Source: Spirogloea muscicola
Lineage: Eukaryota > Streptophyta > Zygnematophyceae > Spirogloeales > Spirogloeaceae
Length of the DNA stretch: 50,436 nt
Assembly: GCA_009602725.1 (NCBI GenBank)
Contig: WELB01000008.1
Span: 529,945 to 580,380 of the forward strand
Direction of reading: 5' to 3'
Under the pieces are notes generated by a model that saw only the letters and a list, made by a program, of their open reading frames with translations, searched no databases and was not told where the DNA came from. Positions 4,935 through 44,717 of this stretch are shown in pieces. Within the stretch, counting starts at the first letter, position 1, and every line of letters starts with the position of its first letter. A program made the translations under genes and the position numbers.

Positions 4935-5995
4935 GTGACGAAGAGCCGCGGAGGGCACTTGGTGGGTCTGACGGGGCCACGCAGACGGCCTGCAGGCCAT
5001 ATCGTGAGCGGCGGCGTTGGCTGAGGAGACGAGGAGAATGAAGATGAGGGGAAGTTGCTCTTCATGTTTTCATGTTGAGGGCCTCCCCCTTTGAACCTGC
5101 CACTCCCTGTGAAGGCTGGCCTAACAAAACCACCGCCTCCTTGTGGTACAGCTTCGTTTTTTGCTTTGCCTTCAGCACGCACTATGTAATGCCGCGGCTT
5201 GGCGTCCCTACCCATCCCTAGTAGCCAATGCCGCTTCCGGTCCCCTTCGGGTACCCTGACATTGCTGGGCTGTCCTTTCGCAGCCATCGCTCGCTCTAGT
5301 AGAAGTTCTTCCATGTCGTTCTTCTTGGGGCTGGCCCTTGGCAGCCCTCGCCCCATTGGGAAGAGCAATTTCTCCAATTTTCTCCACCTTTCTTCCTTCT
5401 TTTCATGCGAACTGCTGACATTCTCCCGTTGCTCCCTTGGACCTTGTTCATTTCTTTTGGGCTGGCCCCTCACAGCCAAAGCCTTGCATGAAGAGGAGCA
5501 ATCTCCTCCTTATGAGCTGGCCCCTTCGAAGTTCATTCTATTTCTGGAGTGGCAAATCACAGCCATCGTCCTCTACTGGACAAGTCTTCTCACTCACACA
5601 GGCAAGCGCAGCGCGGTGTCCCGACGTTCCCAAGGGGAGCAGGCAAATTCCACTTTCAATGCGGCCGGCTATCTCCTCCAGGTGTTTGCCAGGTGCTTGT
5701 CAAGATCGCTGCAGCGATCAATGGGACACGCGCTTGATCTGCGTGCTGGGCGCCCTTTGGCTGCAGCCCCTGGCTATAGACAGGGAAATCGCTACCCAGA
5801 GACTAGTTTCTCTGACCTGCGGCTGCTCGACAGGAAATATTGAGCACCCAGTGGCCACTTGCGTCGCTGTGTGCCTTAACTCTTTTCTGGCCCCTTCGAA
5901 CATTGTTCATCCTTTTTCTGGACTGGCCAATCACAGCCATCGCCCTCTACTGAAAAGAGTCCATCTCTCTCACACTCTTCGCCTTACTTTCAAAG
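4935..5995 (+). repeat. dispersed-repeat cluster (hairpin family plus one GY-ending element)
   Basis: Several copies of the motif 'TTGTTCATTCTTTT-GGGCTGGC-n-CAGCC' lie at about 5320-5346, 5450-5480, 5528-5575 and 5905-5945. Around 5640-5843 is a divergent copy of a longer element whose frame ends in SDLRLLDRKY then stop, like others in the window. The flank 4935-5230 has no recognisable gene. All frames look like repeat debris rather than genes. Confidence 0.7.
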
Positions 5996-17200: not shown

Positions 17201-18080
17201 CCGAATGGGGAGTTTCTTCCGAAAGGGGCTCTTGCCAAAGGGCACGTAAAGCCTGCTAACTGGGGCAAGACGTGTATTGAGTAACGGAGGGCCTGAGTGA
17301 CAAGAACAGCGCCAAGTACATCTATGAACATCGCCAGCTGCTTAGCTGACCCGCTCAATGAGGAGTCAGCAAGGAGGCCGCTAGTTGATATTCAATTACT
17401 GGACGGCAATTTTTAAGCCCTTCTGCCACCAGCTAAATAAACAAGCAAAGGTGGGCGAGGGCTGTGAAATGCCAGCCGAAGACAACGAAGACCAGCTAGA
17501 GCTCGCCCAGCTTATTACTGGGAAAGCCTGTTCCTGAGCTCGCTGCAAGAAATAAGCTCATAAAGGGGGAGCGAGGGCTGTGACAAGCCAGCCGGAAAGA
17601 TGAGAATAAATTCGAAGGGGCCGAAAAGAGCTGAAATCGCCTAGTTCCACAAAGGTTGGTTACTTTGTTGTCCTAATTAGCAGCCCCTAGTCAGAAAGTC
17701 TAGCCGCTGGAAAACAGCTCCCTTGACGAGGGCCACTAGCGGCAGCTAGAGGAAATGACGGTTCCAGGAAGGAGAGGGCGGTGGCTGTGCGAGGCCAGCC
17801 CAGAAAACAAGAATGAACAAAGTACGAAGGGGCCAGAGAAAGCACACAGCGAATCAAGTTGCCTTGAAGCACTTATTAGAGTACGGCCAGCACGCACGCA
17901 GATGCAAGGTTTGGACCAAGGACCGCTGGAGGAGAAGATCTCAAACGGGTTGCAGAAAGCTGACACACTCACGACGGCTGGTGGAGGTTGCATTGGTGCA
18001 TCCCTCCCTGGCAGAACAGCTCCTCCAGTCGAAGGCAGTGGCTGTGAAAGGCCAGCCCAGAAAGAATCCATCACCCTTCA
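14221..18080. repeat. dispersed-repeat region
   Basis: Minus-oriented hairpin-family copies: about 14270-14440, 16735-16790, 17450-17480, 17570-17620, 17780-17840 and 18030-18060. Plus copies: about 14770-14800 and 14930-15030. GY-ending elements, all minus: about 15165-15480, 16605-16720, 17345-17420 and 17680-17800. The AATTCAAGCCAATACATTGT element is at about 15845-15960 and 16425-16500. A head-like segment GTGTATTAAGAGATGG is at about 15075 and 15800. No intact transposase, reverse transcriptase or other gene was seen. Confidence 0.7.
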
Positions 18081-18267
18081 TGCCATGGCCCTCCACCACT
18101 CCATACAGACTCCATTTTCCTGGCCAGCCGGCTCGTCCCCGTCACGCCCGCTGCGCCGCGCCGGAGGCCCAGGGCACCTCCTCTTCCCCCGTGTTCCAGT
18201 CACAGGCAGCAAATCAATCGCTCCTCCACACTGCCGCTGTGCTCTCCTCCGCGCCGTTCAGGCGGCC

Positions 18268-19835
18268 ATGACCACGCCACGCCGCTGCGGCGGAGCCGGG
18301 GCATGTATATTGAGCGATGCGTGGCAGCGCTCCCACCGGTCGCTGGCTGCGGCGCTGGAGGCAGGCGCAGCCGGCGGCTACAGACTCAAGACCTCCGCAA
18401 TCCTGCCGGTTGACGAGCTGCTACATCTGCTTCACGAGGCCCGGGCTGCCGCGCTGGTCGCCGTCCTCGATCGGACCTCACCTCGTCTGACCGAGGTAGG
18501 CCGCTTGTCCTGCTGAAGGATGTGATCTTCAACACCACCGGCGTGTCAATGGCCTTCATCATCCTCGCCGACTGGTCTCCTGACGCCAACCCCGAAGTCT
18601 GGGAGAGGTAACATTTATAGATGCTATAGATGCTGATATTCTTAAGATATGCAAATATCTTATCTCATCTTATCTTATCTTAACTCAAAGTTTGCTACTC
18701 TGACAGCCGCCTTTTGAATAGTACTGCTGGTCGCAGGTCACTTGCATGGCCATGAATCACTTCTTGGCTAGGGCGGAGAGGCAGTGTTTTGATTCTTGAA
18801 GAAGACCTGTGTGTGGCAGAGTATCAAAACTGAGCCAAAGTTTTCAGCGGTCCTACGTTGTCGTCGCTGCGCCAGGCCCCCAAAGAAATTCGGAATTCAA
18901 CAAGGCCTACTTTCGGTGTGCTCACATTTCACAACACATATCTGAGCTGCCACTTCGGTGTGTTGTCAGCAAGTCATGTTTGCAGATATAGGTGTAAGTA
19001 TCACAAGCTCAAGGCTGTAAATATGTCATTCAAATGCACCGGCACCTCGACTGCCTGTTACAAGCAGATTGCCAAAGTAGATTGACAAGCTGCGATGCAC
19101 CAGGCACTGCAAGTCCTGCTTTGGCAAGACGCCTTTTGTCCTCGTAGCAGACGGGCTGTCAGCAATAGCCAAGGTCTTGCGGCTCGTTCATGTGCAAGCT
19201 GGTGAGCAGGTGGCTTGATTTCAATTTCTGGCCAATGCCAACCTGTCAAATTCCTCACACTTGTTGCTTGTGCGTTTCATGATGAGATCTTTGTGGCCTG
19301 CCTTTGCAGAGTGCAAGAGACAAGGTACCATGGAAGTGCTGGATGCTGAGGCAAGTATTACTGAGCAGACACACGAAGCAGCTTTTCTAGCATGCATCAG
19401 ATGCAATGACTAGGTCGCCTTCAGAAGGGTGGCTGGTAACAACACCATTGCTGGTGGCTTTACTCTGTATGCAATGTCTGTGCAAGTCCTGGCAGCTGCA
19501 GGAGCTGGTGAAGTCGCCAGAAGCCATAGCTACTGCACTGCTCGCTGTCCCCGGCCTGGATGGGCCCAGTGTTTATGTGGTATTAGTCAGGCCTCTCCTT
19601 TGACAACAACGTCGAGCAAGGAAATTGCACTGCTTTGCACATGCTCGATCTGCCAGTGTCATTGTTCTATGTGGCCATTGTGCAGCTGCTACAAGCCTTT
19701 GGGTCAATTGAAGCCATCGCATCAGCGGGCCCTGAGATGATTGTGAGTAGGACGGGTTTGCGGCCCTCTGAGGCAGAAAAAGTTGCAGCCTTCTTCCGTG
19801 ATGACCAGTACAACCGCACCCCGCAGCTGGACTGA
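18268..19835 (+). CDS. PTD: PARTING DANCERS-like ERCC1/XPF-fold meiotic protein
   Basis: Exons: 18268-18607 (with an apparent frameshift near 18490-18506), 18841-18915, 19104-19201, 19310-19350, 19496-19570 and 19686-19835. Phases agree except at the frameshift. N-terminal KTSAILPVDELL and VLDRTSP, then PLVLLKDVIFNTTGVSMAFI, SYVVVAAPG...FNKAYFR, KTPFVLVADGLSAIAKVLRL, and a C-terminal helix-hairpin-helix (AVPGLDGPS, LLQAFGSIEAIA, SEAEKVAAFFRDDQY) follow the order in plant PTD, as I remember it. PTD partners SHOC1 and promotes class I meiotic crossovers; the family is ERCC1-like and non-catalytic. The 19350 splice donor is GC rather than GT. The frameshift may be a sequencing error or true damage. 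Confidence 0.8.
18654..18682. repeat. (TATCT)n microsatellite in PTD intron
   Basis: A run of imperfect TATCT/CATCT/TATCT units in the first PTD intron. Confidence 0.7.
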
Positions 19836-22800
19836 TGGCAGGAAGCCAGAAACTGTGCTACATCTGCATACTATACCACTATTAACAGTTCACATCCGCT
19901 GCTTTCTTATGCTGACCTATCGTCTAGGTACTGAAATATGAGCCTATCACAGTACGGGGCAATACTGGGCGGTGGAGCAGAAAGGCGGCTCGTATGGCAC
20001 ACCTGCAGGCACCTCTTAACATGTGCATATAGGATGCCTCAACTCTTGCATTGGTATCATAAGGCAGATCCTTCGCTACTAATTTGTAGCGAACAGCCGG
20101 CGGGATGGGCGAGGTGGCCCAATGTGCGCACACTATTCAATTGAGAGCCACATTGCTCATCAGGCGACAAGGTGTGGGGACACTTAGATGACTGGCCAGA
20201 TGAGAAAAGCTAAGAAAGGCCGAGTACAGCCATAATCCGACAGCCCGACTCGTAAGGCCTCAGCGTTGAGCAATATAAGAGGAAAGAAAGCCATAGCACG
20301 GTGGTCGTTGGCGTGAGGGGTGAGGCAGTGTGCTCGCAGTAGGGCATGTGAGCTGCGGCCGATATATTTGCAGAAAGGCAAGGGAAAGGAAAGCTGATGC
20401 AGAAAGAGTGTGAGCAGAGATACCCCACCTGGAAGCGCCTGCGGCGAATGGGAGGATATGAAGGAAGCGGTGGAAGGAGGGACTCTGAATGCGACAAAGA
20501 ACGGCAGTATGTACGTGGCCCGACAGTGAGTTGCTGACGTCACTCAGAGTCCTGTACACACGGCAAAGAGCGATTCCCGTTAACTGAAGTACTGTGTTGT
20601 CTAACCTTGACCTTGTACTTGCCATGTACATCTAAGGACATGCTCTTCTCCTTGACCGTCATGTCTAGTTGTCTAGATGCCTAGCTAGTGTTGGAGCTCT
20701 TTGGATATTGTCCATTCTTTTTTGGCTGGCTTCTGCCAGCCCCTCTCTTCTATGGGCGAGCTCATCTTCTTGACCTACTTTGCTTCATGATCAGCACACT
20801 TTCTAAATGCAGTCGAGCGGGTGAAAGGTGAGCGAGCTAGGAGCACTCCAATCAAGGTGGAGTAGAGAGCGACAGCAAATGCGATGCAAAGGGCGACTGT
20901 GCACCCGAGCAAGCTTGACAGTCACGGAGGAGCAGCCGCAGGTCAGCATGCTAGCCCTGTTGCAGAGTGACAAGCCCCACAGCGAAAGCTCATGGCCTGT
21001 GTAACGATTTTACATGGCTGGAATGTCAATGCAGCAGTGACGTATTGACAGATGCCTGGAGACTAGACACCTCATCCGGCTGATAGATAAATTGACTGTC
21101 AGTGCCGCAGGAAAGGCTTGACAGATGCCTGGAGACGGACAATTTCACCAGGCTGGGCAGCGTGGCTTTAATTTAGAGATGAGAGCGGCGCAACCCGGAG
21201 TCGTGACACGCGAGACAGCATGGTGCTGGCGCTGGAACGAAAACGGGAGGTGGCAGCGCTGTAGACTGTCTTGACGGCGTTGGTTAGCCTTTAGTGATGA
21301 CGGGAACGATAGACGGCTGACGATAGCATGGGGGTAGTGACCGTCAGCTGCTAGTGACGGGGGACCGTCAGTATGGCGGTGGTTGCCGATGGATGGGTAG
21401 ATTGTCGGTGGTAGCCCGTCGATAGCCGTCGACAGGTCGTGGACGGGTCGTCAACGAGAGACTGGGTGCCAAATGTCCTACCCGGGCCCGTATGGCCGGG
21501 CTCGCAGTCCGTCGGGCTATATAGAGCGCTTAGCGCTTCCTCTGGCTTCCTCTGGCCCCCTTCTCGTTCTTTGTTCATTCTTTTCTGGGCTGGCTTGTCC
21601 AGCCCCTATCCTCAATGGGCGAGCCCTTTCTTCTATATAGAGGGCACCCGAGATGGGAGAGAGGGTGAGTACTTCACCCAACCTCGGACACCTGGACCCT
21701 TGCCCCTGCAGTAACCGTTGCTCAATTTTCGGTTGCGGCCCCATCCCAATGCCTCCCCGGTTTTCCTTGCGCCGCCAGCAGCCCGGGCTTGGCGATCCAC
21801 AGCATTCGTTACAGCCTGCCTGACTGTGCCCGGGCATCAAGAGGCATACATTTCTTCCTAGGAGTGAGGCATACATTTGAAACAAACGAGGGCCAAATGG
21901 CCAAAGGCAAGCACATCTGAAGACCTACATGACCTTCAGCAAAATGACCCGCTCAGTAACCACGAGTCAAAACATAAAGGTCACTAATTGATGCCTGAAT
22001 ACTAGATGTTAGATATGAAGCGCTTTTGCCACCAACTAGAGCTCGCCCAGCCAGGAAAGCGCGTGGGGCGCATGAAATGAAAGGGAGGGAGATGAAGACA
22101 CAGCTCTCCCAATGTGAAAGAAGGCGCGCGGTGCGCATGATATACAAAAAAGAGGCCAACTGTGGCCTTACAAAAGTCCTGGTAACAATGTACGGCAAAG
22201 GGGGCCGAGTGGCTAGCGGATTGAGCGGGGCTGGTCTTCCACATCCAGTGGCCACTTGATTGCCGTGTGCTTTAGCACGCTTCTGGCCCCTTCGTACTTT
22301 GTTGGGCCAATCTTTCATTCTTTCATTCACACAGAAAGTGCTCGCCCATAGAGAGTAGGGGCTGGGCTCACAAGTACCGCCTTTGAAGAGCTTAATCGCT
22401 TGAGAGGGAGGCAGTGGCTGTGAGAAAGCGCGCGGTGCACATGAAAGAGAAAGGGATGCCATTTCGAGCCTCACATAAGTCTCAGAAACGGGGCAATGAG
22501 CTGGTTAAGGGCGGGAAGACGAGTTCCTCCCGTTGGCAATTGACACCCATGGGGTGGGCGCTCGGTGGCTCGAGCTGCTCACCCAGATCGCCCGCCACAC
22601 CATCGCCCGTCGCTTCCATGGAGAGCCGGTCAACTTTCCTTCAGCCGGGTCGCTGGCGCAAGTGTCGTATGCGCCTGGCTGTCTCGCTGCAGAGGTCTAT
22701 GGCCCGCGCGCTGCACCTTCGTGCCGGCAGAGCCCTCGCTGCTGCCTCTGGCTCTGGCCAGGGGACCCACTTCCAGGAGCCTAGCATCTCTGATCTGCGG

Positions 22801-24312
22801 CTGCTTAGCATGGGTTACTGAGTGATCGTTAGCTGCTTTGTTTCTTTGTGTGCTTGTAATTCTAGGGGGGGACATCAAATGAGGGAACGAGAGTAACCAC
22901 AGAGTTGGTGGGGCAGAGGAAAAATGGCTCGCCCATATGAAAAAAGTGGCTAGCAAAGCCAGCCTAGAACACAATGGACAATAGCGGCGGCCACAAAGAC
23001 GATGTGAGGTCTCCGAGAGAATGAGCTCGCCCGTCAAGGCCACAAAACGGGGCCGACAAAGAAAAACTACACACCAGGACACACAATGATGCAGAGGGAG
23101 GATCGAACGGCGCCGGCAGGGAACGGAGGTGGCGGCCAATCAGCCAAATGACGGCCAAGCAGCCAAAGAAGAAGTGGCACTCCCAATGTAGAAGCGCGGC
23201 CAGATTGACTGGTGGCTGGGAAAGGCCAGCCCAAAGGAGTGGACAAGGTCTGAGGGAGCCTGAGTGCCAGCCCAATGGGGGCAAGGGCTGCGAAGTGGGT
23301 CCCCTGGCCAGAGCCAGAGGCAGCAGCGAGGGCTTCTGCCGGCTCGGCGTAGAAGAAAGCGCGGCCAGATTGACTGGTAGCTAGGAAAGGCCAGCCCAAA
23401 GAGAGAAGGCGCGCGGGGCGCATGAATTGAAAGGGAGGCCAATTCAAGCCAATACATTGTTCAGGCAGAGTCGAGTGCAGACTAAACAATGCTACATAAT
23501 ACGGAGACCTAATCTAAGGTACCTAAGATGACATTAGTACCCACGGGTGAGCACAAACAAATCTGACAAGCTAACTTGGGGAGCTGGAGCGAAAGCAATG
23601 GACAAGGTCTGAAGGAGCCGGAGTGCCAGCCCAATGGGGGCAAGGGCTGCGAAAAGCCAGCCCAAAAAGAATTGACAAAGGTTCGGAGGGCCTACAGCCA
23701 CGAAGGGGCCTGAAGATGCTATGTCAGAACAGGGGGATGAGAACGAAATGAGGGAGGCCAAAGGAAGCCAGTACGCTGCTTGAAGAAGTGAAGCTCTTCC
23801 AAAGTTGGAGGGAGCTATGAATGGCCTGTGAAGACACTTCCAGAAGCTTGTAAGAGGACGGAGAATTAGCGACCGACCGGCCAAACAACCAATCAGGCAG
23901 CTTGCAGCCACGCCGACGATGATGCGCCCAACCGGGCGCTTCCCACCTGCCGGGAGCAGGGCCGGGCCGATATTTCCAGCTCCGTCAGAGCCCCCTACCA
24001 GCACGCTCGTAGAACGCGACGCGGGGTCCATTAGTGCGGCGCCGTCCCGTCCCGCGCTTCACGCGCGTCCGCACGCGGCCGCCGAGATGCATCGGATCCG
24101 ACGGCCGGGCCGACCAGTGGTGGAGGATGAATCTCATCCCATCCCCGGCGGCCCGCATCGGCGGCGCCGACGCGGCGGGGCGCGCCGCACGATCCCGATC
24201 GGACGGCCGCCAGGCCCTCCGGCCAACGGGTACCTCCACAAAACCCCCCCCTCCCCACCCCCTTCCCTGCTCATTTGTCAGCCCCGCCCCGCCGCACTCT
24301 ATCTTGCCCGCC
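19836..24312. repeat. intergenic, dispersed repeats and RBCS upstream region
   Basis: 19836-20640 shows no gene. Hairpin-family copies: 20712-20760 (perfect GGCTGGC-TTCT-GCCAGCC), 21550-21630, 22270-22380, 22930-22980, 23200-23240 and 23600-23670. GY-ending elements: 21945-22080 (-), 22590-22825 (+) and 23535-23585 (-), with a fragment at 23290-23345. The AATTCAAGCC element is at 23405-23520, and a head with palindrome GGCCAAATGGCC at 21891-21902. Two copies of TTGACAGATGCCTGGAGAC lie 70 bases apart near 21047 and 21117. 23870-24312 is the GC-rich flank of RBCS; I see no convincing TATA box. Confidence 0.65.
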
Positions 24313-25298
24313 ATGGCCGCCCTCGCCGCCACCTCCGCCCTGGCCGTCGCCGCCGCCGCGCCCGCCGTCGCCGCCGCCCCCGCCTCCCGCTCCGCTTCCG
24401 TCGTCCCCGCCTTCTCCGGCCTCCGCCGCAACGCCGGCGCCGCCAACGAGTGGGCCCTCAAGACCACCTCCAACGGCTCCAAGACCAATGCCTTCCTCGT
24501 GAGAGCCCGCCCTCTGGCGCCCCCCCTCCGCCCCTCCTCGGCCTGATCGTTGCCTCTGAGCTCAGATCTGCCCATCCCGTGGCCTGCATTGTTACATAAC
24601 CTCTCACCTTCTCACGTCCGCCCGAGCTGAAGCTGCATTCCTCATGCCATTGCTTCCTCTTTGCTCTACCTTGATTCAGTTGCTTAGAGCCGATTCTTGA
24701 TGCTCCTGGCATGGCAAGCTCATTACTCGTAAATGTCTTTGCTGTGTCGCCAGGTGTGGCCCCCTTACAACAACCCCAAGTTCGAGACCTTGTCCTACCT
24801 CCCCCCACTCTCCGATGAGGCTATTGCCAAGGAGATTGACTACCTCCTGTTGAAGGGCTGGATTCCCTGCATCGAGTTCGACGAGGTGCGTTGCTAGCAT
24901 CTGACAAGTGTAGGCAATCTTGCTTATCGCTGATGATGTGCTCTGATCAGCATTCGTGTAGTTGGCTGAAGGAGCTGTAAGATCAGATCTAGCTTCGGCT
25001 TGTCCTGATCTGGCTTTGGCACGCTCTCGTTGACATCTTCAGCAAGCTCGCTTGTGGTGCTGATTCCTGGCAGGTTGGCACCATCTCTCGCTACAACAAC
25101 CGGAGCCCAGGCTACTATGATGGCCGCTACTGGACCATGTGGAAGCTCCCCATGTTCGGCTGCAACGACTCCACCCAGGTTCTCCAGGAGGTCGCCAACT
25201 GCAAGAAGGAGTACCCAAAGGCCTTCATCCGTGTCATTGGCTTCGATAGGAGCAGGCAGGTCCAGTGCTGCGGTTTCATTGTCGCCAAGCCCCAGTAG
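24313..25298 (+). CDS. RBCS: Rubisco small subunit precursor, chloroplastic
   Basis: Three exons: 24313-24498, 24754-24885 and 25074-25298 (stop), 180 residues. Residues 1 to about 55 are an Ala/Ser-rich chloroplast transit peptide with no acidic residue. The mature part starts near [19 protein letters not shown] and contains [55 protein letters not shown] and [11 protein letters not shown]. It assembles with RbcL into the L8S8 carbon-fixing enzyme in the stroma. The segment between EFDE and [10 protein letters not shown] is short, as in land plants, rather than the longer loop of chlorophytes such as Chlamydomonas. Both introns fall inside conserved blocks with GT-AG ends. The start ATG is in a CCGCCATGG context. 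Confidence 0.97.
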
Positions 25299-27960
25299 AT
25301 GGTGGCGCTCGCCTTGTGAGGCCTGCCAATTATTTATGTTGTTGGACAGCCTTTCAATTTGAAGCTATTTTACTGCATAGAAAGCATCTGTCGGGCATTG
25401 TCANGGGGGGGGCGGGAGAGCTTGGTGGTGGCTTTTTTGTTGTATTTCACAATTGTTGCTTTAAGCAGAAGTAAAGCAGCAGCACTTGATGATAATTCTG
25501 GGCGAGAGATGAATTATGAGAACACATATTCATTCATTCAGGTTGTGGCCTACAGACTTTGACCTAGTCCTCGCACAAGAGCCTGGGTATCCTGCTGCCA
25601 GAGCTTTGTTGTGCTTCTGAATTACCAGCTCGCAATTCCTGATGTGCTGCCAAGAAGCAGAATGCTCTGCGCTGTTAAACTTGCTGTCCATCCTTTGCAG
25701 ACATTGATATCTGCTTCGTCTCTACCCCTGCCCTGCCTACATGTAAGTGAAGGCAATGCCTGGCTGACACTGCATATGCTCTGCCCACACATAGCCACAT
25801 GCCTGAACCTGCCCAAAGTGCCAGCAAAGGCCCACATTCAAGTAATTCCAGCTTGCGCACAACAAATGCACGGCGCACGAGTGATGGAAAGATTACAATA
25901 TGAGCAGATTGGGGGTTTGCTCCACTGGCTGGCCCTGTTACATGCACGGTAGCACATTATCCTTTCCTTGTACTTGGCCATTTGGCCCTCGTTTGTTTCA
26001 GATACACAAACTTGGTTCCTGAGGAGTGCTTATCTTGCTCTGCATCCTTGTTGTTCAATACACTGAATCTGCCGAAGCCCCTGATTATTTTTGGAATGTC
26101 AATAATAGCAATTTTTAGTGTCGCGCCTCTTGGCTGCGTTCAACACCCTCCACTTTCTTATTTCTCCACTCCATGTCTCGCAGCTGGTCGTTTGCCCCCT
26201 CTCTGTACTCCCAGCAGAACGCCCCCAACTTAGCGGTACAGAATCAGATTCGCTAATGGCGGCAGATCAAGACTAGCACAAGCTCCGCTTGGCAGCACAA
26301 AGAGGTCAGCATAGCACAGGCTCCCTCCGCACCCAGGTTAGTTGATAGTCATAGCTAGGGCGCACAGGAGCAGCAGTGCAGTCGCCTCGTGTTCAGGATC
26401 AGCCCTAAATGCCGGGCAACCCTTCTCACTGGGAGCGCTTCCACGGCCCACTAGGCTGAGTCTGGTGGTCACATAGCCCATCTGCTGGAGTACCATGCGA
26501 ATGTGTTTGACCGGATGGTTCCCCAGCGCAACTCGCTGCTTCATCGTATTGCTACATCCAACACTCTTGTGGTCAAGACTTCGGGAGCTCAGACTGCAGG
26601 GCGACAGGGGCGGTAGTGGCTGTAGAAGGCCAGCCTGCGTGAAAATAATGAAGCAGGGAAACAGTAGATTACTTACTAGATGAGAGCTCCTCGATGTAGG
26701 CCATGGCAGCGGATGACATGTTCGGTGAGGACTACGCTGGCAGAAGTGCTTGACAGCATAGTACGCAGGACCAGAGAACAATATGAGCTCAGTAGCTGTG
26801 AGTTGAGCAGCCTGAGTCAAGACAAAGTCGGAAGCAAAAAGCAAACAGGCAATTGGTGCCTGGTGCCGGCCAAGTGGTGCCAGCCGAAGGCTCCAGCAGA
26901 TGCGAATGGTTGTGATCGTGTCAATCATGAACATCTGAAGGAAAGGTCCTCGCCAACAGGAAAAAGTAAGGGGCAATGCCTTCCAACGAGGGCAGTGGCT
27001 AGGACAACCAGCCCAATGTACCTCCTCCACATGTTGGGGCATGATAGTGCCAGCAGAGGAGCTCTTTGACGTTTTACGTGAATGATCTGACTGCGGGTCA
27101 AAGGTCAATGCCTGTGCAGGTTTAAACGTAACGTGGTTGTTTGGCGAGACGATAAAGTCGTGCTGCACCTGTCAGCAGGCGGATGCTGATTATCTTCCGC
27201 CAGCAAGGTGGTGGAACGCCAATTGCTCCCGCTTCGCCTATCTTTCTTCCATTACCCCATATCTTCACCTCACATGGTAATTTACGAGAAGTTTATGATG
27301 GGATATTCATGAGTCCTTTACACACAAAAAGAGAAGCAATTTCTGCTGAAAACTCTTGTAAACGTAAGGCTGTAGGACCAGCAACATCAGACAGCTAATT
27401 TAGGGCAGTGGACATTATAACGATAAGTGACCACGACTTCTGGCAACTGGGTGGAGCCCTTACCCTCTTACACCGCAGACCTCTTGCACGTCTTACTAGC
27501 AAGGCAGCCCAGCGGGAGCCGCTCTTGGAAAAACCAGCAGCTTTAGTCTTTCTTTTCCGTTTCAAGTTCCCTTCAGTTGTCCTTGCGCTCGTGCGTAGCG
27601 CCTCTATTGGCCAAGGGCTTCGCTTCGTGTAGTTCTGACCTTTCAGATTCTTTCGCCTGAGCACTGTACAAGCTCGGCTTGGCCTCCCTTACATTTTCAT
27701 GCGCACCGCTCGTCTTCTTTATCTCCTGTATGGCACCCGGCTGGCTTTCACAGCTCAGTAACCCCGAGTCTTGCAGCTGCTGACTCGGTATTACTTACTA
27801 AGCTCCCATTCACTGTATTCTCGTGCACAGATGCGTAGTTATGGTGCCTTTCGGCCCTTTAGACCTTGTCATCCTCGTTGGGCTAACCTCTTACAGCCGT
27901 TGCCGTCAAATTGGAAGAGCTGTTTCTCACAGCCACTGCCATACGTTTGAAGAGCTGTTC
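25299..27960. repeat. RBCS 3' flank and repeat-bearing intergenic region
   Basis: 25299-25560 is probably RBCS 3'UTR (an ambiguous base at 25404 precedes a G-run). A head fragment of the dispersed family with GGCCATTTGGCC is at 25960-26010, and hairpin-family fragments at 26615-26640 (-), 26990-27015 (-) and 27850-27935 (+). A 276-codon minus frame at 26338-27168 overlaps repeat sequence and shows no family motif, so it is not called as a gene. Confidence 0.55.
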
Positions 27961-27979: not shown

Positions 27980-28353
27980 CCAGCTCGCCCGCCACACCAT
28001 CGCCCGGCGCTTCCATGTGGAGCCGGTTGACTTCCCTGCAGCCGGGTCGCTGGCGCAAGTGTATCGAATGCGCCTGGCCGTCTCGCTGCAGAGGTCTCGC
28101 TGCCCATGGCCCGGGCGCTGCACCTTCGTGCCGGCAGAGCCCTCGCTGCTGCCTCTGGCTCTGGCCAGGGGACCCACTTCCAGGAGCCCAGCATCTCTGA
28201 TCTGCGGCTGCTTAGCAGGGGTTACTGAGTGTCTCGTAGCAGCTCTGTTTCTGTTACTTAGCGCTTCCCCTGGCCCCCTTCTCGTACTCTGTTCATTCTT
28301 TTTCGGGCTGGTTGTTCCAGCCCCTATTCTCAATGGGCGAGCACTTTCTTCTT
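27980..28353 (+). repeat. dispersed GY-ending element plus hairpin motif (left arm of inverted pair)
   Basis: Closely matches 22590-22825 in its first part. Bases 28104-28311 are identical, base for base as read here, to the reverse complement of 32224-32432, and the match resumes through the hairpin motif CTGGTTGTTCCAG to about 28353. The apparent frame ends SDLRLLSRGY then stop, but the same ending decays freely in other copies, so it is not a protein gene. Confidence 0.9.
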
Positions 28354-28445
28354 CTTGTTCCCCGTTTACTGCCACTTTATTCTACATTCTTTTCCCCCTC
28401 TCTCCACACACTCTCTGCATGCGCCACGGGCTCGCCGCCCCACCC

Positions 28446-28458
28446 ACGCCGCCGCCGC

Positions 28459-28489
<31 letters not shown>

Positions 28490-28492
28490 GTC
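28446..28492. repeat. (CCG)n run before the DJ-1 start codon
   Basis: A nearly pure GCC/CCG trinucleotide tract ends directly at the DJ-1 ATG. It is probably 5'UTR; similar tracts precede the LHW-like start. Confidence 0.75.
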
Positions 28493-29933
28493 ATGGCGCC
28501 AAGCAGGCGCATCCTCTTCCTGGTAGGCGACTTCGCCGAGGACTACGAGGTGAGCATCGCCGGGTCTTCACCACCATGCTGTGGGAGGGGCCGACGGAAG
28601 GCGCCAACGCAAGGAGAGCTGCAGCGTCAAGGCAACCCTGTGCTGCGTACTTCGTCGCACCGCTTCATTGGCAGGAGAAGCCATGATGTGCCTGTCACAC
28701 ACACTGTCGTCATGGCCTGCCATGTCTGCAGCTAAATGCGACTCAGAGGTAGCTCACCACAATGGCATGCTCGCATCGCTCGCAGGTGATGGTGCCGTTT
28801 CAGACGCTCCAGGCTCTGGGCTTCAGCACGGACGCGGTGTGCCCGGGTAAGAAGGAGGGTGACATCAGCCGCACAGCCGTCCACGATTTCGAAGGTGATC
28901 AAGTATGTGGGCTTGATGGTCCTCTTCACGGAAACCTGCAAAGACAAGCCTGCTGATTGACTTCCAGATTCTTCTGTCAGTATGATACGATTCTTTTTTG
29001 TTAGAAAGACATTATCTCTGGGTGTTCCTCCTGCTTTAGATTTTGTTAAGAATGACCAATATTGTCATGCAAGGAAGCTAGCATGTGGTGGTCGTTGCTT
29101 TTCCCATTGTCTGCAATGACTGCCAGCAAACTTGACAACCCTGTAATGCATGTATGACAACAAGCTGGAGCAAGCCGCACATTTGCTGTGGTTAGCTAGG
29201 ATTATCTGCTGAAGTCTGTCCTCTGCCCCTGGCTTGGTGCCTTCCACAAGCAGACTTACAGCGAGAAGCCAGGCCACAATTTCGTCCTCAATGCAACTTT
29301 CAGCGACGTTTCGTGGGACGAATACGATGCACTTGTGATTCCTGGAGGCCGTGCTCCAGAGTATCTCTCGGTTGATGAGTCTGTGATCAAGTTGGTCCAG
29401 GGCTTCAATGCAGCTCTGAAGCCAATAGCTGCTATCTGTCATGGGCCGCTCATACTCGCAGCAGCTGGTGTGCTCAAGGTCAGTGGTACCTTTTGTTGGC
29501 AAGGGCTGCTGCAACTGATCGAAGGTGGCTAGCAATGTGACTCATATTGACGACCTGCTTACATGGATCTGTGATCCTTCCGTTACTGAGTGATTTGAGT
29601 GACTTCATCGTGACTTGACTTGACTTGACTTCACAAGACAGTGACTTGATCATCACTTATTTCTATCCTATTATGCAGCTGATATTGATGGTGTGGTGAT
29701 TGTGCAGGGCAAGAAGTGTACAGCATATCCTGCTTGCAAGCCAGCTCTGGTTGCTGCAGGAGCAATTTGGGAAGAGCCCGACCCTATATCTGCCTGCTTC
29801 ATGGACGAATGCCTTGTCACAGGCGCGGGCTGGCTGGGGCATCCTGAATTTATTGGGTTGCTCTTGATGGCTATGGGGGCAAGAGTACAAGGAAGCGACA
29901 AGAGGGTGCTCCTATTAGCTGGGGTGAGTATCT
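28493..29933 (+). CDS. DJ-1/PfpI family protein (plant DJ-1D/E/F type), first domain
   Basis: Exons 28493-28549, 28786-28902, 29254-29478 and 29708-29933. They encode a complete DJ-1/PfpI domain: [57 protein letters not shown], the nucleophile elbow [14 protein letters not shown] with the conserved Cys, then [18 protein letters not shown] and [10 protein letters not shown]. Exon four runs into [10 protein letters not shown], the normal start of the second domain in plant two-domain DJ-1 proteins. Plant members have glyoxalase III-type activity on methylglyoxal and glyoxal and protect against carbonyl stress. The continuation is disrupted: the next part of domain two lies on the opposite strand (30086-30448). 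Confidence 0.92.
29608..29632. repeat. (TGACT)n microsatellite in DJ-1 intron
   Basis: GTGACTTGACTTGACTTGACT within the third intron of the DJ-1 gene. Confidence 0.7.
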
Positions 29934-30085
29934 TGCCAGAGTGTGTAATTCACAATCAAGTCCGCCCAAAGTTCACTTTCAGCTCATAGTTCATGTTTTT
30001 GCATGTATTTTCATGCATTCACATCATACAGTAGCGCTGTCCTGCCCACCTTCGGAACAGTGCTCTGCTGCTTAGAAAAGCTCAC

Positions 30086-30448
30086 CTGAAGGACTCCAGC
30101 TGCTGACAGTATAAGTGGTCCATGGCAGATGGATGCTATTACTTTTTTCTCTTTGTCAAACTGTCGAACAAGGTCTAGAACTTTGTAATTAGTAGACAGG
30201 TACTCTGGGGCTCGGCCACCTGGAATAAGCAGCACATCTAGTCTTCAGCCTTCACGTCATCAAAATTGGAGTTGAGTTGAAATTTGTGCCCAGGCTTTTC
30301 TGAGTACGTTTGGGCTCCCTCAAAGTCATGGATGGCAGTCATGCAAAAATCGTCTTTGCTTTTTCCAGGACAGACGGTATCGACGCGGTAGTCCAAGCTT
30401 TGGCATTGCCTGATAAGGCACCATCACCTCGTAGTCTTCTACATAGTC
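30086..30448 (-). pseudogene. inverted N-terminal half of DJ-1 second domain
   Basis: On the minus strand, after an AG acceptor, this reads [19 protein letters not shown], then (in a shifted frame) a CPGK and [19 protein letters not shown] block, then (shifted again) [14 protein letters not shown] and [18 protein letters not shown], ending at a GTGAGC donor. This is exactly the piece of domain two missing between plus-strand exons 29708-29933 and 30607-30795, and both splice phases are zero, so a simple inversion with breakpoints in introns explains it. Two small indels (near 30377-30398 and 30235-30243) break the frame. Either a real inversion with decay or an assembly or base-calling error. 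Confidence 0.88.
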
Positions 30449-30606
30449 CTGTCAATGCAGAGATACAGTGATCAAGCACAGCATATCCACTTCAGCAGCA
30501 CTTAGATCCCTGCACAAACGAAATGCAGAGGTGTAACTATTGCAGGATTGCGCTACTCTAGACATAAACTGCTGATCTGAGGGCACCACAATGGCATTCA
30601 TTGCAG

Positions 30607-30795
30607 GGCAAACGGTTGACTGCCTACCCCGCTGTCAAGCCCGCAATTGTCCTAGCTGGAGCAGAGTGGCTTGAGCCAGAACCCATTACCAAGTGCTTCA
30701 AGGATGGGAATCTGATTTCTGGTGCTGCATGGCCAGCTCACCCAGAATTTTTGGCCCTCATCATGGATGCTCTTGGCACCACTGTGTCGACTTAA
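30607..30795 (+). CDS. DJ-1 second domain, C-terminal exon
   Basis: After TTGCAG this exon reads GKRLTAYPAVKPAIVLAGAE, WLEPEPITKCFKDGNLISGA, AWPAHPEFLALIMDALG and ends at TAA. It is the C-terminal third of the second DJ-1/PfpI domain and follows in phase from the inverted exon at 30086-30448 rather than from anything on its own strand. As arranged here it would splice to domain one at 29933, giving a protein with one and a third domains. Confidence 0.88.
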   Translation, partial: GKRLTAYPAVKPAIVLAGAEWLEPEPITKCFKDGNLISGAAWPAHPEFLALIMDALGTTVST

Positions 30796-31197
30796 ACGAA
30801 CGCAAATGAACTGATCAAGTCCACCTGTGCATTGTGATTTGCAAGCACCTTAAAACAGCCTGTAGCAAGTGCCAGTGCTGGCAGAAGGCAGAGCTCTGTG
30901 GTATAGTGAGAAAGTCTTGACATGTGCTCCATGTACATATCTCAACTGCCGGCAGTCAAGAGGCCTGGCGCAGATCGTGCACCGTTTTGGGCCACTTTGG
31001 CTTTGCAGTTATGTTGCTTGACTCTGAGGCCTCAAAGCATGCAGCAGTAACTTGTCGCCATGTTTCCTGCACCTGATGCAATCAAATTTGTACCCCTATG
31101 TGCTCCAGGAGCATATGGTGGCAGATTTCTTCGTACATTATGCTATCCCGCAGTGAGTCAACAAATGCTTGGCACCACATTGTGCAATTGAGAGCTG
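30796..31197. other. convergent 3' intergenic region
   Basis: About 400 bases between the DJ-1 stop and the CMC4 stop, which face each other. Presumably two 3'UTRs; nothing else seen. Confidence 0.6.
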
Positions 31198-31566
31198 TCA
31201 CTTGACCATGCTGAGGAGGTCGGAGAGCTGGGAGCAGTGCTTGGACTCGCCCTTGCAGCTGTCGCAGCATGCCTGCAGCTTCTTGACGTACGCCAAGCAC
31301 CTGGCCAAATCAACGAGCTTTGACGGCCACAGCTAAGCCTTGATGTGCAGTCACATGGAAGGCATCTGCTGATCATAGCCTGCAATACCTCCCTGGACCA
31401 AGCAGTGCCCTGATTTAGCCTATATCAGAAGGCAATAGCGCATGCGAGGGCGAGGCGCGGCGACATACTTGGACACCTGGAAGTCCTCCTTTGCTATGCA
31501 GCGCTGGATTGCGCAGGCCTCCGGATGGCAAGGCTCTTCGGGCGGTGGTTTCTTGCCCCACAACAT
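31198..31566 (-). CDS. CMC4: Cx9C-motif mitochondrial intermembrane protein CMC4
   Basis: Two exons, 31469-31566 and 31198-31300 (minus), joined by a GTATGT donor and a CAG acceptor, encode 66 residues. The first cysteine helix is CHPEACAIQRC (C-x4-C-x4-C, so the outer pair is C-x9-C), the second is CLAYVKKLQAC (C-x9-C), followed by CDSC and a short tail ending SDLLSMVK. Length and the EACAIQRC signature fit CMC4 (p8MTCP1 family), a twin Cx9C protein oxidised by Mia40 in the mitochondrial intermembrane space. Its exact role is not settled; yeast Cmc4 is linked to respiratory assembly. It is convergent with the DJ-1 gene. Confidence 0.9.
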
Positions 31567-32104
31567 CCGCAACAGGTGGTGGGGCCGCAACGACCGCGCG
31601 CCGCAGCAGTCGAAGTGGAGGACGCCACCCAAAAGCGGCGATGTGACAACGAGCTCCGTAGAGCGCAGCAACGCGACGTAGCTCTTGCCCCTTCTGGGCA
31701 GCCAGGGACACAGCCCAAAGAGGATCCGCAAGCACGGCCAAAAGCGGAGGACCTTGCGGGCTCGACAGTGCGGGGCTCACAACGCGGGAGCCGTTGCTCG
31801 CGTGTGGGCTCGGCTTGTGTCGCACCAAATCCTCCTGCGCTGGCTCGCGCCCAGATGGCTGACAGCAGACCTCCGGCTGGCTGGAGCACTGCCGCTGCGG
31901 GCTGGCGCCGGAGCGGGCTCCTCCTTGGCGACGCGGTGACGGCGGCTGCGGCGGCGGCAGCGGCGCGGCGGCGAGGAGGGAGCTGGCTTCGGCACGCGCC
32001 AGCAGGCTGAGGCGAGCGAGAGAGAGCCGTGCCCGGCGGCAGCGGCGGCAGAGGCCAAGTGAGCCAAGTGGCGACCACCGCCGAGTCGCCTCACCTCCTC
32101 ATGC
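31567..32104. other. upstream region of CMC4, GC-rich
   Basis: Long frames on both strands reflect high GC; no protein motif was seen. Probably promoter and 5'UTR of CMC4. Confidence 0.5.
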
Positions 32105-32114
32105 TTTGCACCTG

Positions 32115-32432
32115 AAAGAAGAAAGTGCTCGCCCATTGAGAATAGGGGCTGGAACAACCAGCCCGAAAGAGAGAGAAGGCGCGCGGGGCGCATGAATTGA
32201 AAGGGAGGCCAATTCAAGCCAATTCAAGCCCGAAAAAGAATGAACAGAGTACGAGAAGGGGGCCAGGGGAAGCGCTAAGTAACAGAAACAGAGCTGCTAC
32301 GAGACACTCAGTAACCCCTGCTAAGCAGCCGCAGATCAGAGATGCTGGGCTCCTGGAAGTGGGTCCCCTGGCCAGAGCCAGAGGCAGCAGCGAGGGCTCT
32401 GCCGGCACGAAGGTGCAGCGCCCGGGCCATGG
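32115..32432 (-). repeat. dispersed element (right arm of inverted pair), cut by the gap
   Basis: Reverse complement of 28104-28353. It is interrupted by a 58-bp insert (32169-32226) and stops at the run of Ns, so its full extent is hidden. Confidence 0.92.
32160..32235. mobile_element. short insertion with 9-bp duplicated flanks
   Basis: Compared with the uninterrupted copy at 28290-28330, this copy has 58 extra bases (32169-32226) flanked by AGCCCGAAA at 32160-32168 and 32227-32235. The insert carries GAAGGCGCGCGGGGCGCATG and GGGAGGCCAATTC, the start of the AATTCAAGCC element that also occurs near 15845, 16425, 22060, 22430 and 23405. A target-site duplication is the simplest reading, indicating that this short element moves or moved. 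Confidence 0.6.
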
Positions 32433-32891
32433 NNNNNNNNNNNNNNNNNNNNNNNNNNNNNNNNNNNNNNNNNNNNNNNNNNNNNNNNNNNNNNNNNNNN
32501 NNNNNNNNNNNNNNNNNNNNNNNNNNNNNNNNNNNNNNNNNNNNNNNNNNNNNNNNNNNNNNNNNNNNNNNNNNNNNNNNNNNNNNNNNNNNNNNNNNNN
32601 NNNNNNNNNNNNNNNNNNNNNNNNNNNNNNNNNNNNNNNNNNNNNNNNNNNNNNNNNNNNNNNNNNNNNNNNNNNNNNNNNNNNNNNNNNNNNNNNNNNN
32701 NNNNNNNNNNNNNNNNNNNNNNNNNNNNNNNNNNNNNNNNNNNNNNNNNNNNNNNNNNNNNNNNNNNNNNNNNNNNNNNNNNNNNNNNNNNNNNNNNNNN
32801 NNNNNNNNNNNNNNNNNNNNNNNNNNNNNNNNNNNNNNNNNNNNNNNNNNNNNNNNNNNNNNNNNNNNNNNNNNNNNNNNNNNNNNNNNNN
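32433..32891. other. assembly gap (Ns)
   Basis: 459 unknown bases between the repeat copy and the 5' end of TERT. Confidence 1.
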
Positions 32892-39886
<6,995 letters not shown>

Positions 39887-40244
39887 CAGGTGCAAGTCAT
39901 TCTCCTTCTTGGCATGCTGCAGCGGGGGAGCTTTGATCTGGCCTGCAAATCCTCATCACATGCCGTGCAGTGCTCCTCTTGTTTATCGGCAGGCCCGTAC
40001 AATTTATGACTCAATAATGCAGTGCACCTATTACTTGCTGACATGGCCTAGACTGCGGTTGCAGCCTTATGCACAGGCAAGAGATCATTTGGGCAGTGTG
40101 GATTGACACAAGGGAGCAGTGAAGAGCCCACAACTGCCACCAGTGTACACCCTCGTGTGCCAATCACTTTGTCGTCCACGGTAAAACAATGTGAGTACTG
40201 TCAAATGCGGCCTAACCTTGAAATAACCTCAATTCCGGGTCATG
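39887..40244. other. convergent 3' region, TERT and patatin-like gene
   Basis: About 360 bases between two facing stop codons. No further gene seen. Confidence 0.6.
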
Positions 40245-41990
40245 TCACAAGTCAGCTTCTTTGCTCTGCTCCATGATGTCTGCCATAAGGGCTGCAGAAT
40301 GGAGCTGCGAAAGCGAGCCATCTTGGTGGGCCCTTGAGACAAAAAGCTCGCCAGCGGCCATCATGTCCTTGATCCACTGCCACGTGCGGCTGGGGCCCTC
40401 ACCCTTGGCACCAAGGCTGAGGAACTGAAGGCGGTCCTTCTTCATGGCCTGCATGCATTGGTCTGCTTTCTCAGCCTATAACAATGCAAAGACATGATCT
40501 TGTTGCAATGTACTCGATCACCGCAGGATAACAAGGCGTTTTCTGCGGCATCGTTCGGATCACAACCAACAGACAGGAGGCAAGTCATCTATCTTGTCCA
40601 CTGAAGGACAAGATGACCAGCAAGGGGAATACCGGATCGTCAGTGTAATCAAGCCAGACCGTTGGCCGGCTGCCACCCAAAGCTAGATCCTGCCTGTGGA
40701 CGCAGCAACAGTGCAGCCCAATATTGGTGAAGTCAGTATACTGCAAAGATCAACACAGGGGCAGCTTAATTGGCTGTCACTTAAGTCTACCATATAACTA
40801 GGTAACTGATTGCTTGTATCCAGACTGTGGTGGTTCATGTCACACAGATGACTTGCTTCAGCACAAGCCACTGCTAGCTGTCTATCAATTGACTGACAGC
40901 ATGGTGCGATGCTCCATACTCTATGAGGGTGGAGTCCAGAAGACAGTAAGCAACCTTGATGCGAACAGTGAGCCATCAAGAGAGCGCCGACCGCGGAAGT
41001 GTGCCCACGGGTGGCCGTCCATGAACCAGGGTATGTGCACGGACGCCAGGCAACAGTCAATGAGGTCGTCGCGGCTGGCGAAGTCGGTGAATGACTGCCT
41101 TGCAAAGCCAGTGCTCCTGCGTGCGCGTGCAATAGGCCAGGCCGAGGTGGACAGCTATAAAACGTCTTGCTCAAGCACCATGTCCCCAGGGTGCATCTCA
41201 GAAACCCAACACCTGACAACGACATGGAAGGTGTGGAATGGAGCATTTAAGGTGCATTGCTTATCAGCTGGGCGCGCAAAGCTGGCGGTAACTCATATCA
41301 GCGGGGCAAGGGCAGTGCGGCCGGGCAGGCGTGCATGCCGGTGCCGGATGCTGGGGAGGTGGACAACATAAAGGTGCAGGCGGCCCCGGCAGCGCTCGGC
41401 GGCGTCGCAGGGCAGCATGCTTTGCAACCAGAGGCGTATCAGCCCGCCCCAGATGCCTCCAAGGCCTGCGTGTATGGCGGCCAGGGCGAGCTGCTGAGAC
41501 CAGCGATAAGTGGCGGCAGCCATGGGCAGCGGCGAGAGGCGGCGGTGGCAGTGGCAGGTCCTCTGAGCGCTGGCGCAGGCGGCCTTGGGCGCTGCGTACC
41601 GGCGGGGTTGTCCCAGACCTTGTGGTCGAGCGAGAGCTGGAACGCGGCCTCGGCGGCCGCGGCGCCGTCGACGCGGCAGGCAGCGAGCGTGGCGGCGAGC
41701 GCGCCGGCGCTGGCGCCGGCCATGTCCACAGCGCCCAGGTCGTAGCGCTGCGCCAGGCCCGCCGCCGCGCCCAGCTGCCAGTAGAAGAACATGCCCCTGC
41801 AGCGCCCCGCAGCTCGCGCCGCGTGGTGAGCGCCAAGGCTCGCCCGCCGTCGTGGGGCCATGGCTGGCGCGGCTGCGCGGGAAGCTCTGGCGCCCACCCG
41901 CCTGGGAAGCTCAGCAGCGGCCGCGCGGCGGCGGAGGCGGCGGCGGTGGCGGCGGCGGCGGAGGCGGCGGCGCCTCGAGTGCCATTGCAC
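40245..41990 (-). CDS. patatin-like phospholipase
   Basis: Minus-strand exons: 41600-41990, about 41290-41465, 40955-41094, about 40600-40685 and 40245-40475 (stop). The first exon has an Arg/Ala-rich N-terminus (possible organelle targeting), RGMFFYWQLGAAAGL, then the nucleophile motif GASAGALAA (G-x-S-x-G). The second exon has GIWGGLIRLWL and RGRLHLYVVHLPS. The third has SRDDLIDCCLASVHIPWFMD and RRSLDGSLF, whose DGS is the catalytic Asp position. A later exon has VWLDYTDDPVFPLL. Patatin-type enzymes hydrolyse acyl groups from membrane and storage lipids with a Ser-Asp dyad. The short form with IWGG and DYT resembles patatin-like proteins of green algae and bacteria-like plant proteins. The end of exon two is uncertain. 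Confidence 0.82.
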
Positions 41991-42114
41991 GTTTCGTCGC
42001 CGCTTCGAAATTTGCCTACACTTAGGTGAACCTGTGTTGGCTGTCCGGCGCTGCTGAAGAGGTCAGGGCACGTGGGAGACCCCTCAGCCCGGCGCCGGCG
42101 CCGGCGGCGGCACT
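41991..42114. promoter_or_regulatory. short divergent promoter region
   Basis: Only about 125 bases separate the putative starts of the minus-strand patatin-like gene and the plus-strand WDR83 gene, so they probably share a bidirectional promoter. No clear TATA box was seen; the distance depends on both predicted starts. Confidence 0.4.
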
Positions 42115-44717
42115 TTGCGGGTGGTCCATGGCGGTCGCCAAGGGCCAGGTGCCAATCAACTTTGCAGCCTCCGCCCATTGCGGCTATCTCCGCTGTTGTC
42201 AGCCTNCCGCGACCGCGCCGTGCGCCTGTGGAACCCGCACCGCGGCGCCGCCGTCGCCGCCTTCCTCGGCCACGGCCGCGATGTCCGCGACGTCGCCGCC
42301 GCCGGGTGCGCTTCTGCCGCCGCCGCCCATTCGCCCGCCGCGGCGAAGAATTCTATGGTGGAGCTTCTGGGCGCTGATTGCAGCACAGGCCTAAAGCCCC
42401 AAACCCCCAAACCCATCGGCTGCCGCTGCAGGGACAACGGCAGCCTGGCGTCGTGCGGCGGTGACCGGCAGGTGTTCCTGTGGGACGTCGCGACCACGCG
42501 CGTGGTACGCAAGTTCCGCGGCCACGACGGCGAGGTCAGGATCCCCTCGTCGCTCTCGCTGCGCGCTGGTGTGTGGAATTATTCAACTGGAAGCAGTGGG
42601 AGCTCGCAAGCGCCCTGCTGTGGAGAGGGCTGCTGGGGGCCGCCGCCTGCCACGTTCCCATTCAGCCCCATTCGTCGGTCTTAGGGTTCAGGTTTAGGGT
42701 TAAGGGTTAAGGGCGCCCTGGCACCACGGCGTGACCACAAGCACTACAGCGCGGCCGTTCCATCAGGGTAACAGATAAATATGATGAAGCTAGTATCAGT
42801 TACAATATGATGAGATGAGGGCCCACGCTCCCAGAACGAGAGGGGGTCGGGTTTGTAAGGCTCAGGAGCCGTTATCAGGCCGCCCGAGTTCAAATCCTTC
42901 CTGTTGCGCTCCTCGGCGAGGCTGATCATGGCAGCTCACCCTGGCCTGCCACAGGTGAATGCCGTCAAGTTCAGCGACACGTCCGCGGTGGTCGTCACGG
43001 GTGGCTACGACCGCAGCGTCAGGGCTTGGGACTGCCGCTCGCGCAGCATCGATCCCATCCAGGTCCGCTCTCCCCTGTCACCACGACTGCTTCCTGCACC
43101 AACCAAGTGAGAAGCGGTTGCAGCCTGGACATTGATGTGATATTGACTGCTGACTATGTAAGTGCACTGAAGCCCATGTTAAGGAGCCCTCAGCGCTTCG
43201 GCTATATGCAAGTTATGCCAGCCTGCGATGCTCAAAGCGGCAGCAATGTATGTCTTGCGAGCAGCTGGCAAAGTGCTGTAATTGACACGTGGGAGGGCCG
43301 GTTTGCTTGCTCCTGACATGCGAGCTCTGTACGAGCAGAGCAGGTGATCGACCCGTTCAGCGACAGTGTGTCGTCCGTGGCGCTGACCAAGTCGGAGATC
43401 GTGGCCGGCAGCGTTGACGGCTCCGTCCGGTCACTTGACATCCGCATGGGCCGGTAATGGTGAAGCATGGCCTCCTAGATGCATTGCTTACAAGTAGCTC
43501 GATAGCTACTTGTAAAGGGCAATCCAGAACGTCTGCAGCAGCGTTGTCCATGCAGCAAATTGTTTCCCGGATGCAGAAAGCTCAGGCTTTTGACCACATC
43601 TTAATTTCACTTATCTGGAAATACAGTAGGGATGGAGAGCTGCAGTTTTTTGCGTCATCTGGCTCAGCCTGTTGCCCTGCTTCCCCATCTCGCTCTGTGT
43701 AGGGTGGTCTCCGATCATCTGGGCCGGCCGGTGACCAGCGTGAGCCTCTCCAATGACGGCAACTGCGTCCTTGCCGGCTGCCTGGACAGCACTGTGCGGC
43801 TACTTGACAAGTGAGGCCCCCTGAATACCGCATACGGCGTCGGGACCAAGGGCAGCTGCAACTTCCTGCAGCACCGTGATGATACATCCTGCTCCCAAGA
43901 GCTGGTTACAACATGTGGAGTTTAGCCTTGCAATTGACAGGTATCTGACCTCGTGGCAGGGCATCAGGCGAATTGCTAAACGAGTACAAAGGACATGTGA
44001 ATGAGGTAGGTGATGGCTAGCTCAGCGGTAACAAAGGGTTGCCGAGGCATGTGCGAGCCCCTTGTGGACAGTCGCTGGGCAAGGAAGTGATGGCATCACT
44101 TTATTGTTATCAGAGTGTGCAGGGCATGCTCTGCTGCTGTGACGACACAATCATTATTGCTGATCCTTGTTGAGCCTCATAATAGATTGCCTGGGCTTCA
44201 GGTGCTCTTGCATGAGTGTGCTACTTGAGCTCTCTAGCTGATGGGTAGCCTGACCAGCTGTTCAGTCTCTTACGAGGGCTGCAAGGCTTGCTCTGTGCAG
44301 TCATACAAGCTCGACAGCTGCCTGAGCAACACGGACGCGCATGTCATCAGTGGATCTGAGGATGGACGGATCTGCTTCTGGGACCTTGTGGACGCCAGAA
44401 TGACTTCAATTAAAGGCCATACAGCAGCGGTATGCCAGGAGTCAAGCCTGAGATGCTGGTTTTGCACACCTGCAGGCTAATGTGATTGTCGTGCTCGTAT
44501 TGTGTCTCACACCTGGGATTGAAAATTGCAATGTTGTGCATGCACAGAGGGTAGGAGGGCTGAGGTTGTGCAAGTCTGTGATGCCATAATTGCAGCAGGG
44601 TATTGCTCAAGTTGTAGCAGTAATTGGTTGCAGGTGACAGGTGTGTCGTATCACCCCAAGGAGTGCTGCCTGCTGACATCATCAGTGGATGGCTCAGTGG
44701 CTGTGTGGAAACGCTGA
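42115..44717 (+). CDS. WDR83: WD40-repeat scaffold protein WDR83 (MORG1)
   Basis: Eight exons: 42115-42305, 42432-42534, 42955-43062, 43344-43453, 43703-43810, 43960-44005, 44301-44429 and 44634-44717; summed length is divisible by three (292 residues). Blades are recognisable by RDRAVRLWNPHRG, DRQVFLWDVATTRVVRKFRG, DRSVRAWDCRSRSIDPIQ, SEIVAGSVDGSVRSLDIRMG, CVLAGCLDSTVRLLDKASGE, YKLDSCLSNTDAHVISGSED and GVSYHPKECCLLTSSVDGSV. Order and wording match WDR83/MORG1, a MAPK-module scaffold also found in spliceosomal C complexes and linked to HIF prolyl hydroxylase in animals. The first blade is incomplete: the sequence before RDRAVRLW does not look like a WD strand and an N at 42206 lies at the break. 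Start ATG is therefore uncertain. Confidence 0.92.
42681..42713 (+). repeat. short interstitial telomere-like repeat
   Basis: About five units mixing TTTAGGG, TTAAGGG and TTCAGG lie in the WDR83 intron between exons 2 and 3. TTTAGGG is the usual plant telomere repeat. The run is degenerate and short. Confidence 0.7.

Follow-up and report, generated by a model that had tools for sequence, protein, structure and literature searches.

A probable exon-sized microinversion in one of three homoeologous two-domain DJ-1 genes of Spirogloea muscicola

The nearest known systems to the gene described here are the Arabidopsis DJ-1 homolog D (AtDJ-1D; PDB 3uk7, 4ofw, 4ogg), rice OsDJ-1C and, more broadly, cluster A1 of the plant glyoxalase III proteins. 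AtDJ-1D has been described as a homotrimer (PMC8170915). For OsDJ-1C, mutation of Cys119 in domain 1 affected activity, and the reported reduction of catalytic efficiency by more than half is taken here to refer to this mutant, as far as the consulted part of the article goes (PMC4702089). In the portion of PMC8170915 used here, all of the algae analysed are stated to have single-domain DJ-1 proteins only, with moss being the first to have two domains. Spirogloea muscicola is a streptophyte alga, and an excerpt of PMC9065682 cites a recent triplication of its whole genome; a literature search retrieved no paper that treats Spirogloea together with DJ-1. As regards rearrangements of small size, microinversions between human and chimpanzee are given in the available extract of PMC8755829 as 17-33 nt long and edged by inverted repeats of 3-75 nt.

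In this study, a stretch of 50,436 nucleotides of the S. muscicola assembly (153 Mb in 471 contigs), corresponding to positions 529945-580380 of contig C8 and referred to here as the window, was analysed. Positions 28493-30795 of the window hold a six-exon gene that encodes a two-domain DJ-1 protein of the AtDJ-1D type (glyoxalase-type), with exon limits placed by alignment to two sister copies on contigs C42 and C39 (Table 1). Five of the exons lie on the plus strand and exon 5 alone lies on the minus strand. This agrees with the sequence-only reading, which had placed 30086-30448 on the minus strand between plus-strand neighbours, and both the strands and the coordinates hold: the DJ-1_PfpI profile of Pfam matches the minus-strand piece with an E-value of 5.7e-15 (61.9 bits) and matches plus-strand pieces on either side. 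In this copy, the PF01965 scores of exons 3 and 6 are above the cut-off, and that of exon 4 taken alone is marginally under it (9.8e-6, 25.9 bits, against a curated cut-off of 26.6). The five plus-strand exons are preceded by AG and followed by GT wherever these are expected, and the splice signals of exon 5 are intact on the minus strand (ttgacag before, gtgagc after). Phase zero at both ends of exon 5, as had been proposed from the window, was borne out by the exon lengths of the C42 copy (57, 117, 225, 216, 363, and 189), all six of which are divisible by three.

Table 1. Position and strand of the exons, the inverted block and its breakpoints in the window
Feature	Position	Strand	Remarks
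Exon 1	28493..28549	+	Begins DJ-1 domain 1; Glu19 is the last residue; GT donor after; placed by C42/C39 alignment
Exon 2	28786..28902	+	Domain 1
Exon 3	29254..29478	+	Domain 1, ICHGP motif (Cys120); Pfam PF01965 1.8e-21
Exon 4	29708..29923	+	Last part of domain 1, first residues of domain 2; GT donor intact
Left breakpoint	30048..30060	.	Intron 4; flank ends CTGCCC; in C42, GGGC faces it at the opposite edge
Inverted block	30057..30508 (left edge 30057/30060)	-	About 452 bp, edges within a few bases; opposite-strand match to C42 and C39
Exon 5, inverted	30086..30448	-	Carries most of domain 2 and that domain's Glu, Cys and His
Right breakpoint	30505..30513	.	Intron 5; about 5 bases missing relative to C42/C39, by eye
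Exon 6	30607..30795	+	End of domain 2 and stop codon; AG acceptor intact, in frame with exon 4; PF01965 8.1e-8

The profile search returned 12 DJ-1_PfpI matches in the whole assembly, four on each of the contigs C8, C42, and C39. In the C42 and C39 genes, all four pieces are on a single strand, exon 5 is in sense orientation with an open frame, and all exons translate openly (some stops within the pieces found by the profile search fall outside the exons). Both complete tandem domains in one open frame are thus present in the C42 and C39 copies and absent from the window copy. Exon 5 was located at three places only (16 of 16 profile candidates scored; 3 of 3 in the sequence search). The two sisters match each other across the gene in a single stretch of 3756 columns with 90% identity, and the inverted match in the window sits in a block that is collinear with both of them on either side of the gene. 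Downstream, BLAST matches run in order from 33171 to 43077 of the window for C42 and from 33013 to 42668 for C39, and those within 33-43 kb with an E-value of 1e-20 or better have the expected orientation in 2 of 2 cases for C42 and 4 of 4 for C39; four further C39 rows are a dispersed repeat. Upstream, in 10000-27500, the matches listed by a search that scored 38 of 12565 candidates include in-order matches on C42 and two on C39. By parsimony, the sense order of exon 5 would be the older state, since two of the three copies have it and the Arabidopsis protein matches the C42 product over the full length. The inverted exon itself had been recognised from the window alone, from which the sister copies elsewhere in the assembly could not be seen.

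The alignments to the sisters delimit the rearrangement sharply on either side. Relative to C42, BLAST places 28401-30000 on the same strand, 30060-30508 on the opposite strand, and 30507-32098 on the same strand again, and the same three-piece pattern is found relative to C39. The inverted block is 93.8% identical to C42 and 93.2% to C39 over 454 aligned columns; with the block computationally turned, the alignment to the sisters runs through. With collinear flanks and only the middle on the opposite strand relative to both sisters, the locus has the structure expected of a microinversion. The flipped block is larger than exon 5 and has both of its edges in introns (introns 4 and 5). The earlier proposal of one inversion with both breakpoints in introns also explains the comparison with C42 and C39. 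At the breakpoints, GCCC and GGGC face each other in C42, while C39 has GCCT and GGGC and thus lacks the 4-base inverted microhomology; by eye, the start of the block resembles the reverse complement of the bases that precede GGGC in the sisters. Exact inverted matches between flanks of about 1 kb are at most 11 bases long, and none of those reaching 9 bases has an arm at each edge. In one inverted match of 10 bases, an arm falls on the right edge (30508-30517) and its partner on 29700-29709, about 350 bases from the left edge. No N occurs in 29700-30800, the nearest N run being at 32433.

Several repeats were observed in the neighbouring sequence. A 206-base inverted repeat (28104-28309 and 32227-32432) with 100% identity brackets the whole DJ-1 gene, and one of its arms ends at the N run. 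A large flip via this repeat was considered and rejected, as the gene flanks and the downstream block are oriented as in both sisters. The repeat belongs to a dispersed element whose C42 and C39 copies match the C8 copies at about 84-92% in the stronger BLAST rows, and because of this the perfect pair may have arisen by recent gene conversion or, at the gap, as an artefact of assembly. The interval 32433-33012 consists of 459 N followed by 121 A, with the C39 match restarting directly after the A run, and looks like a gap-closing artefact, although the N run is possibly not an assembly gap. Further away, a repeat of about 650 bases (15068-15718) recurs in at least 35 places elsewhere in the assembly with 88-98% identity among the matches listed, and probably represents a mobile element with recent activity. 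Shorter pieces at 22.5-22.9 kb recur, among the matches listed, on several contigs that also bear this repeat. Lastly, a 258-base unit is present in three tandem copies at 4158-4935 (91% matches).

The flipped exon has gained one base and lost another, and five in-frame stops lie between the two sites; the two small indels read from the window as breaking the inverted frame were thus recovered. Frame-breaking indels number 2 in the 363 bases of the flipped exon versus none in the remaining 3138 bases of coding sequence from all three copies (Fisher P 0.011), though two indels are few. Of the substitutions private to the window copy, the flipped exon carries 9 synonymous and 4 nonsynonymous ones and the other exons 10 and 5, not counting one three-way site in exon 5, two such sites elsewhere, gapped codons, and the extra column. 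Relaxed constraint is not shown by these substitutions: the N/S rate ratio is 0.12 in the flipped exon versus 0.16 across this copy's remaining exons, and neither the nonsynonymous excess (P 0.48) nor the total of substitutions (P 0.10) in the flipped exon is significant. The low nonsynonymous share suggests that exon 5 was under selection through most of its separate history, and equally gives no sign of decay from substitutions alone. A rough Poisson model of nonsynonymous changes and indels (N/S of 0.1 before release; coding indels at half an event per 3138 bases) estimated that constraint was released at 0.12-0.36 of the branch, with intervals of 0.02-0.80 depending on the assumed neutral rate, and was better with release than without it by 2.6-6.2 lnL units. 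This model estimate makes the flip appear to postdate the split of the copies. In introns 4 and 5, 20 of 160 and 14 of 125 ungapped columns carry changes private to the window copy, versus 34 of 799 in introns 1-3; a mutation burst at the inversion is not claimed, since windows of 200 bases in other parts of the block reach 0.10-0.12 and columns at the junctions are partly misaligned. Introns 4 and 5 also have length changes private to this copy, which are partly alignment-dependent.

Taken together, the locus is likely to represent a natural micro-inversion of about 450 bp that affected one of three homoeologous AtDJ-1D-type copies after these had diverged. The sequence-only reading had left a natural inversion and a misassembly side by side. 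The natural event is now favoured, if not proven, by the two indels that the flipped exon carries, the lack of N or of inverted repeats of a size that would mislead an assembler at the edges, and the length changes in the surrounding introns. A misassembly, in which the real gene would be intact and a 450-base piece would have been placed backwards with two base errors, is rather unlikely but deserves consideration. Eight N runs are present in the 200 kb of C8 that were inspected (some possibly not assembly gaps), and the 459 N at 32433, beside an arm of the perfect inverted repeat and 2 kb off, make local assembly trouble conceivable; the purifying N/S pattern that persists in the flipped exon also speaks for a misassembly. 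Against this stand the edges without N, the exact inverted repeats between the flanks that never exceed 11 bases, the private length changes in introns 4 and 5 (with the dependence on alignment mentioned above), and the confinement of both frame-breaking indels to the flipped exon, whose errors would presumably be too few for an uncorrected long-read fill.

For the natural inversion, the following order of events is proposed. The breaks lie in introns 4 and 5, and their ends were perhaps joined at GCCC/GGGC, a 4-base inverted microhomology, in the course of break repair or replication, although a match of this length could be due to chance. The flip would have taken place after the divergence of the three copies, and the flipped exon, useless in antisense, would then have begun to decay, with the two frame-breaking indels as its visible trace. 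The loss may have been tolerated because the intact C42 and C39 copies would keep full function. At present, the window copy most likely makes, if anything, an mRNA that is spliced from 29923 to 30607. This predicted exon 4 to exon 6 junction is in frame and gives 804 nt and 267 residues, in line with the truncated gene of one domain and a remainder that had been expected of a natural inversion. The predicted product has a complete domain 1 (Glu19, Cys120, His121), followed by the initial few and the final 62 residues of domain 2. Domain 1 aligns to both domains of the AtDJ-1D structures, with its ICHG motif aligned to that of 3uk7; Glu19 and Cys120, as located here, are together with the His presumed from the literature to be the catalytic residues. 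Upon retention of the intron after exon 4, the frame would end 21 codons on. A new plus-strand exon derived from the flipped piece was rejected, as all three plus-strand frames are closed.

Other fates of the flipped piece were weighed too. In a plus-strand primary transcript, about 452 bases would lie antisense to the region of exon 5 in C42 and C39, and 104 of 343 21-base words of the flipped exon match exon 5 of C42 exactly (77 of 343 for C39). A transcript with the retained intron could hence pair with the sister mRNAs and feed small-RNA silencing; that the inversion turned the window copy into a regulator of its sisters in this way is very unlikely. It is more improbable still that the flipped exon is in use through minus-strand transcription within a separate RNA: its own splice signals survive on that strand, but the frame is broken and holds five stops, the profile search detected no further DJ-1 piece on the minus strand in the region, and the three plus-strand frames across the piece are likewise closed. 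Hardly credible, lastly, is the insertion of an inverted exon 5 copy from a sister gene with deletion of the gene's own exon, which by structure alone would be indistinguishable from a flip in place, given the nearly equal distance to C42 and C39 (93.8% and 93.2%), the 13 private substitutions in the exon, as expected for the window copy's own exon, and the lack of a second, left-over exon 5.

The inversion is most likely real and fairly recent, and belongs to an ordinary class of damage to genes; structurally, the event is unremarkable. Its value lies in that one homoeolog of a triplicated gene would have been disabled by an exon-sized flip instead of a deletion or point decay, in a clean and roughly datable manner and with two intact copies as built-in controls. 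As the predicted skipped product is in frame with one whole domain, it may also offer a natural experiment, on a small scale, as to whether an AtDJ-1D-type enzyme can do with domain 1 alone.

Compared with the known systems, the C42 product (388 aa) resembles AtDJ-1D in having two DJ-1 domains with an ICHG motif in each, and aligns with 3uk7 from end to end (residues 1-387, E 6e-161). The window copy differs from AtDJ-1D and OsDJ-1C in that it has no sense exon 5 and hence lacks most of domain 2, including the Cys and His that are, by count, Cys313 and His314 in the intact C42 copy; the counterpart of OsDJ-1C Cys119, Cys120, is retained. The intact two-domain genes on C42 and C39 of this streptophyte alga contrast with the single-domain statement on algae in the portion of PMC8170915 used here. 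Like the human-chimpanzee microinversions of the PMC8755829 extract, the inversion is short and perhaps edged by short inverted repeats (4 nt in C42), but it is about 450 bp long and includes a whole exon. To judge by its title, PMC8421701 describes a PRKN exon inversion in dystonia patients, in which an exon is likewise inverted within its gene; that case is a human disease allele, whereas the present one concerns one assembly and one of three homoeologs. As far as these partial sources go, exon inversions have been published before, as have microinversions at short inverted repeats, and the Spirogloea locus is a new example.
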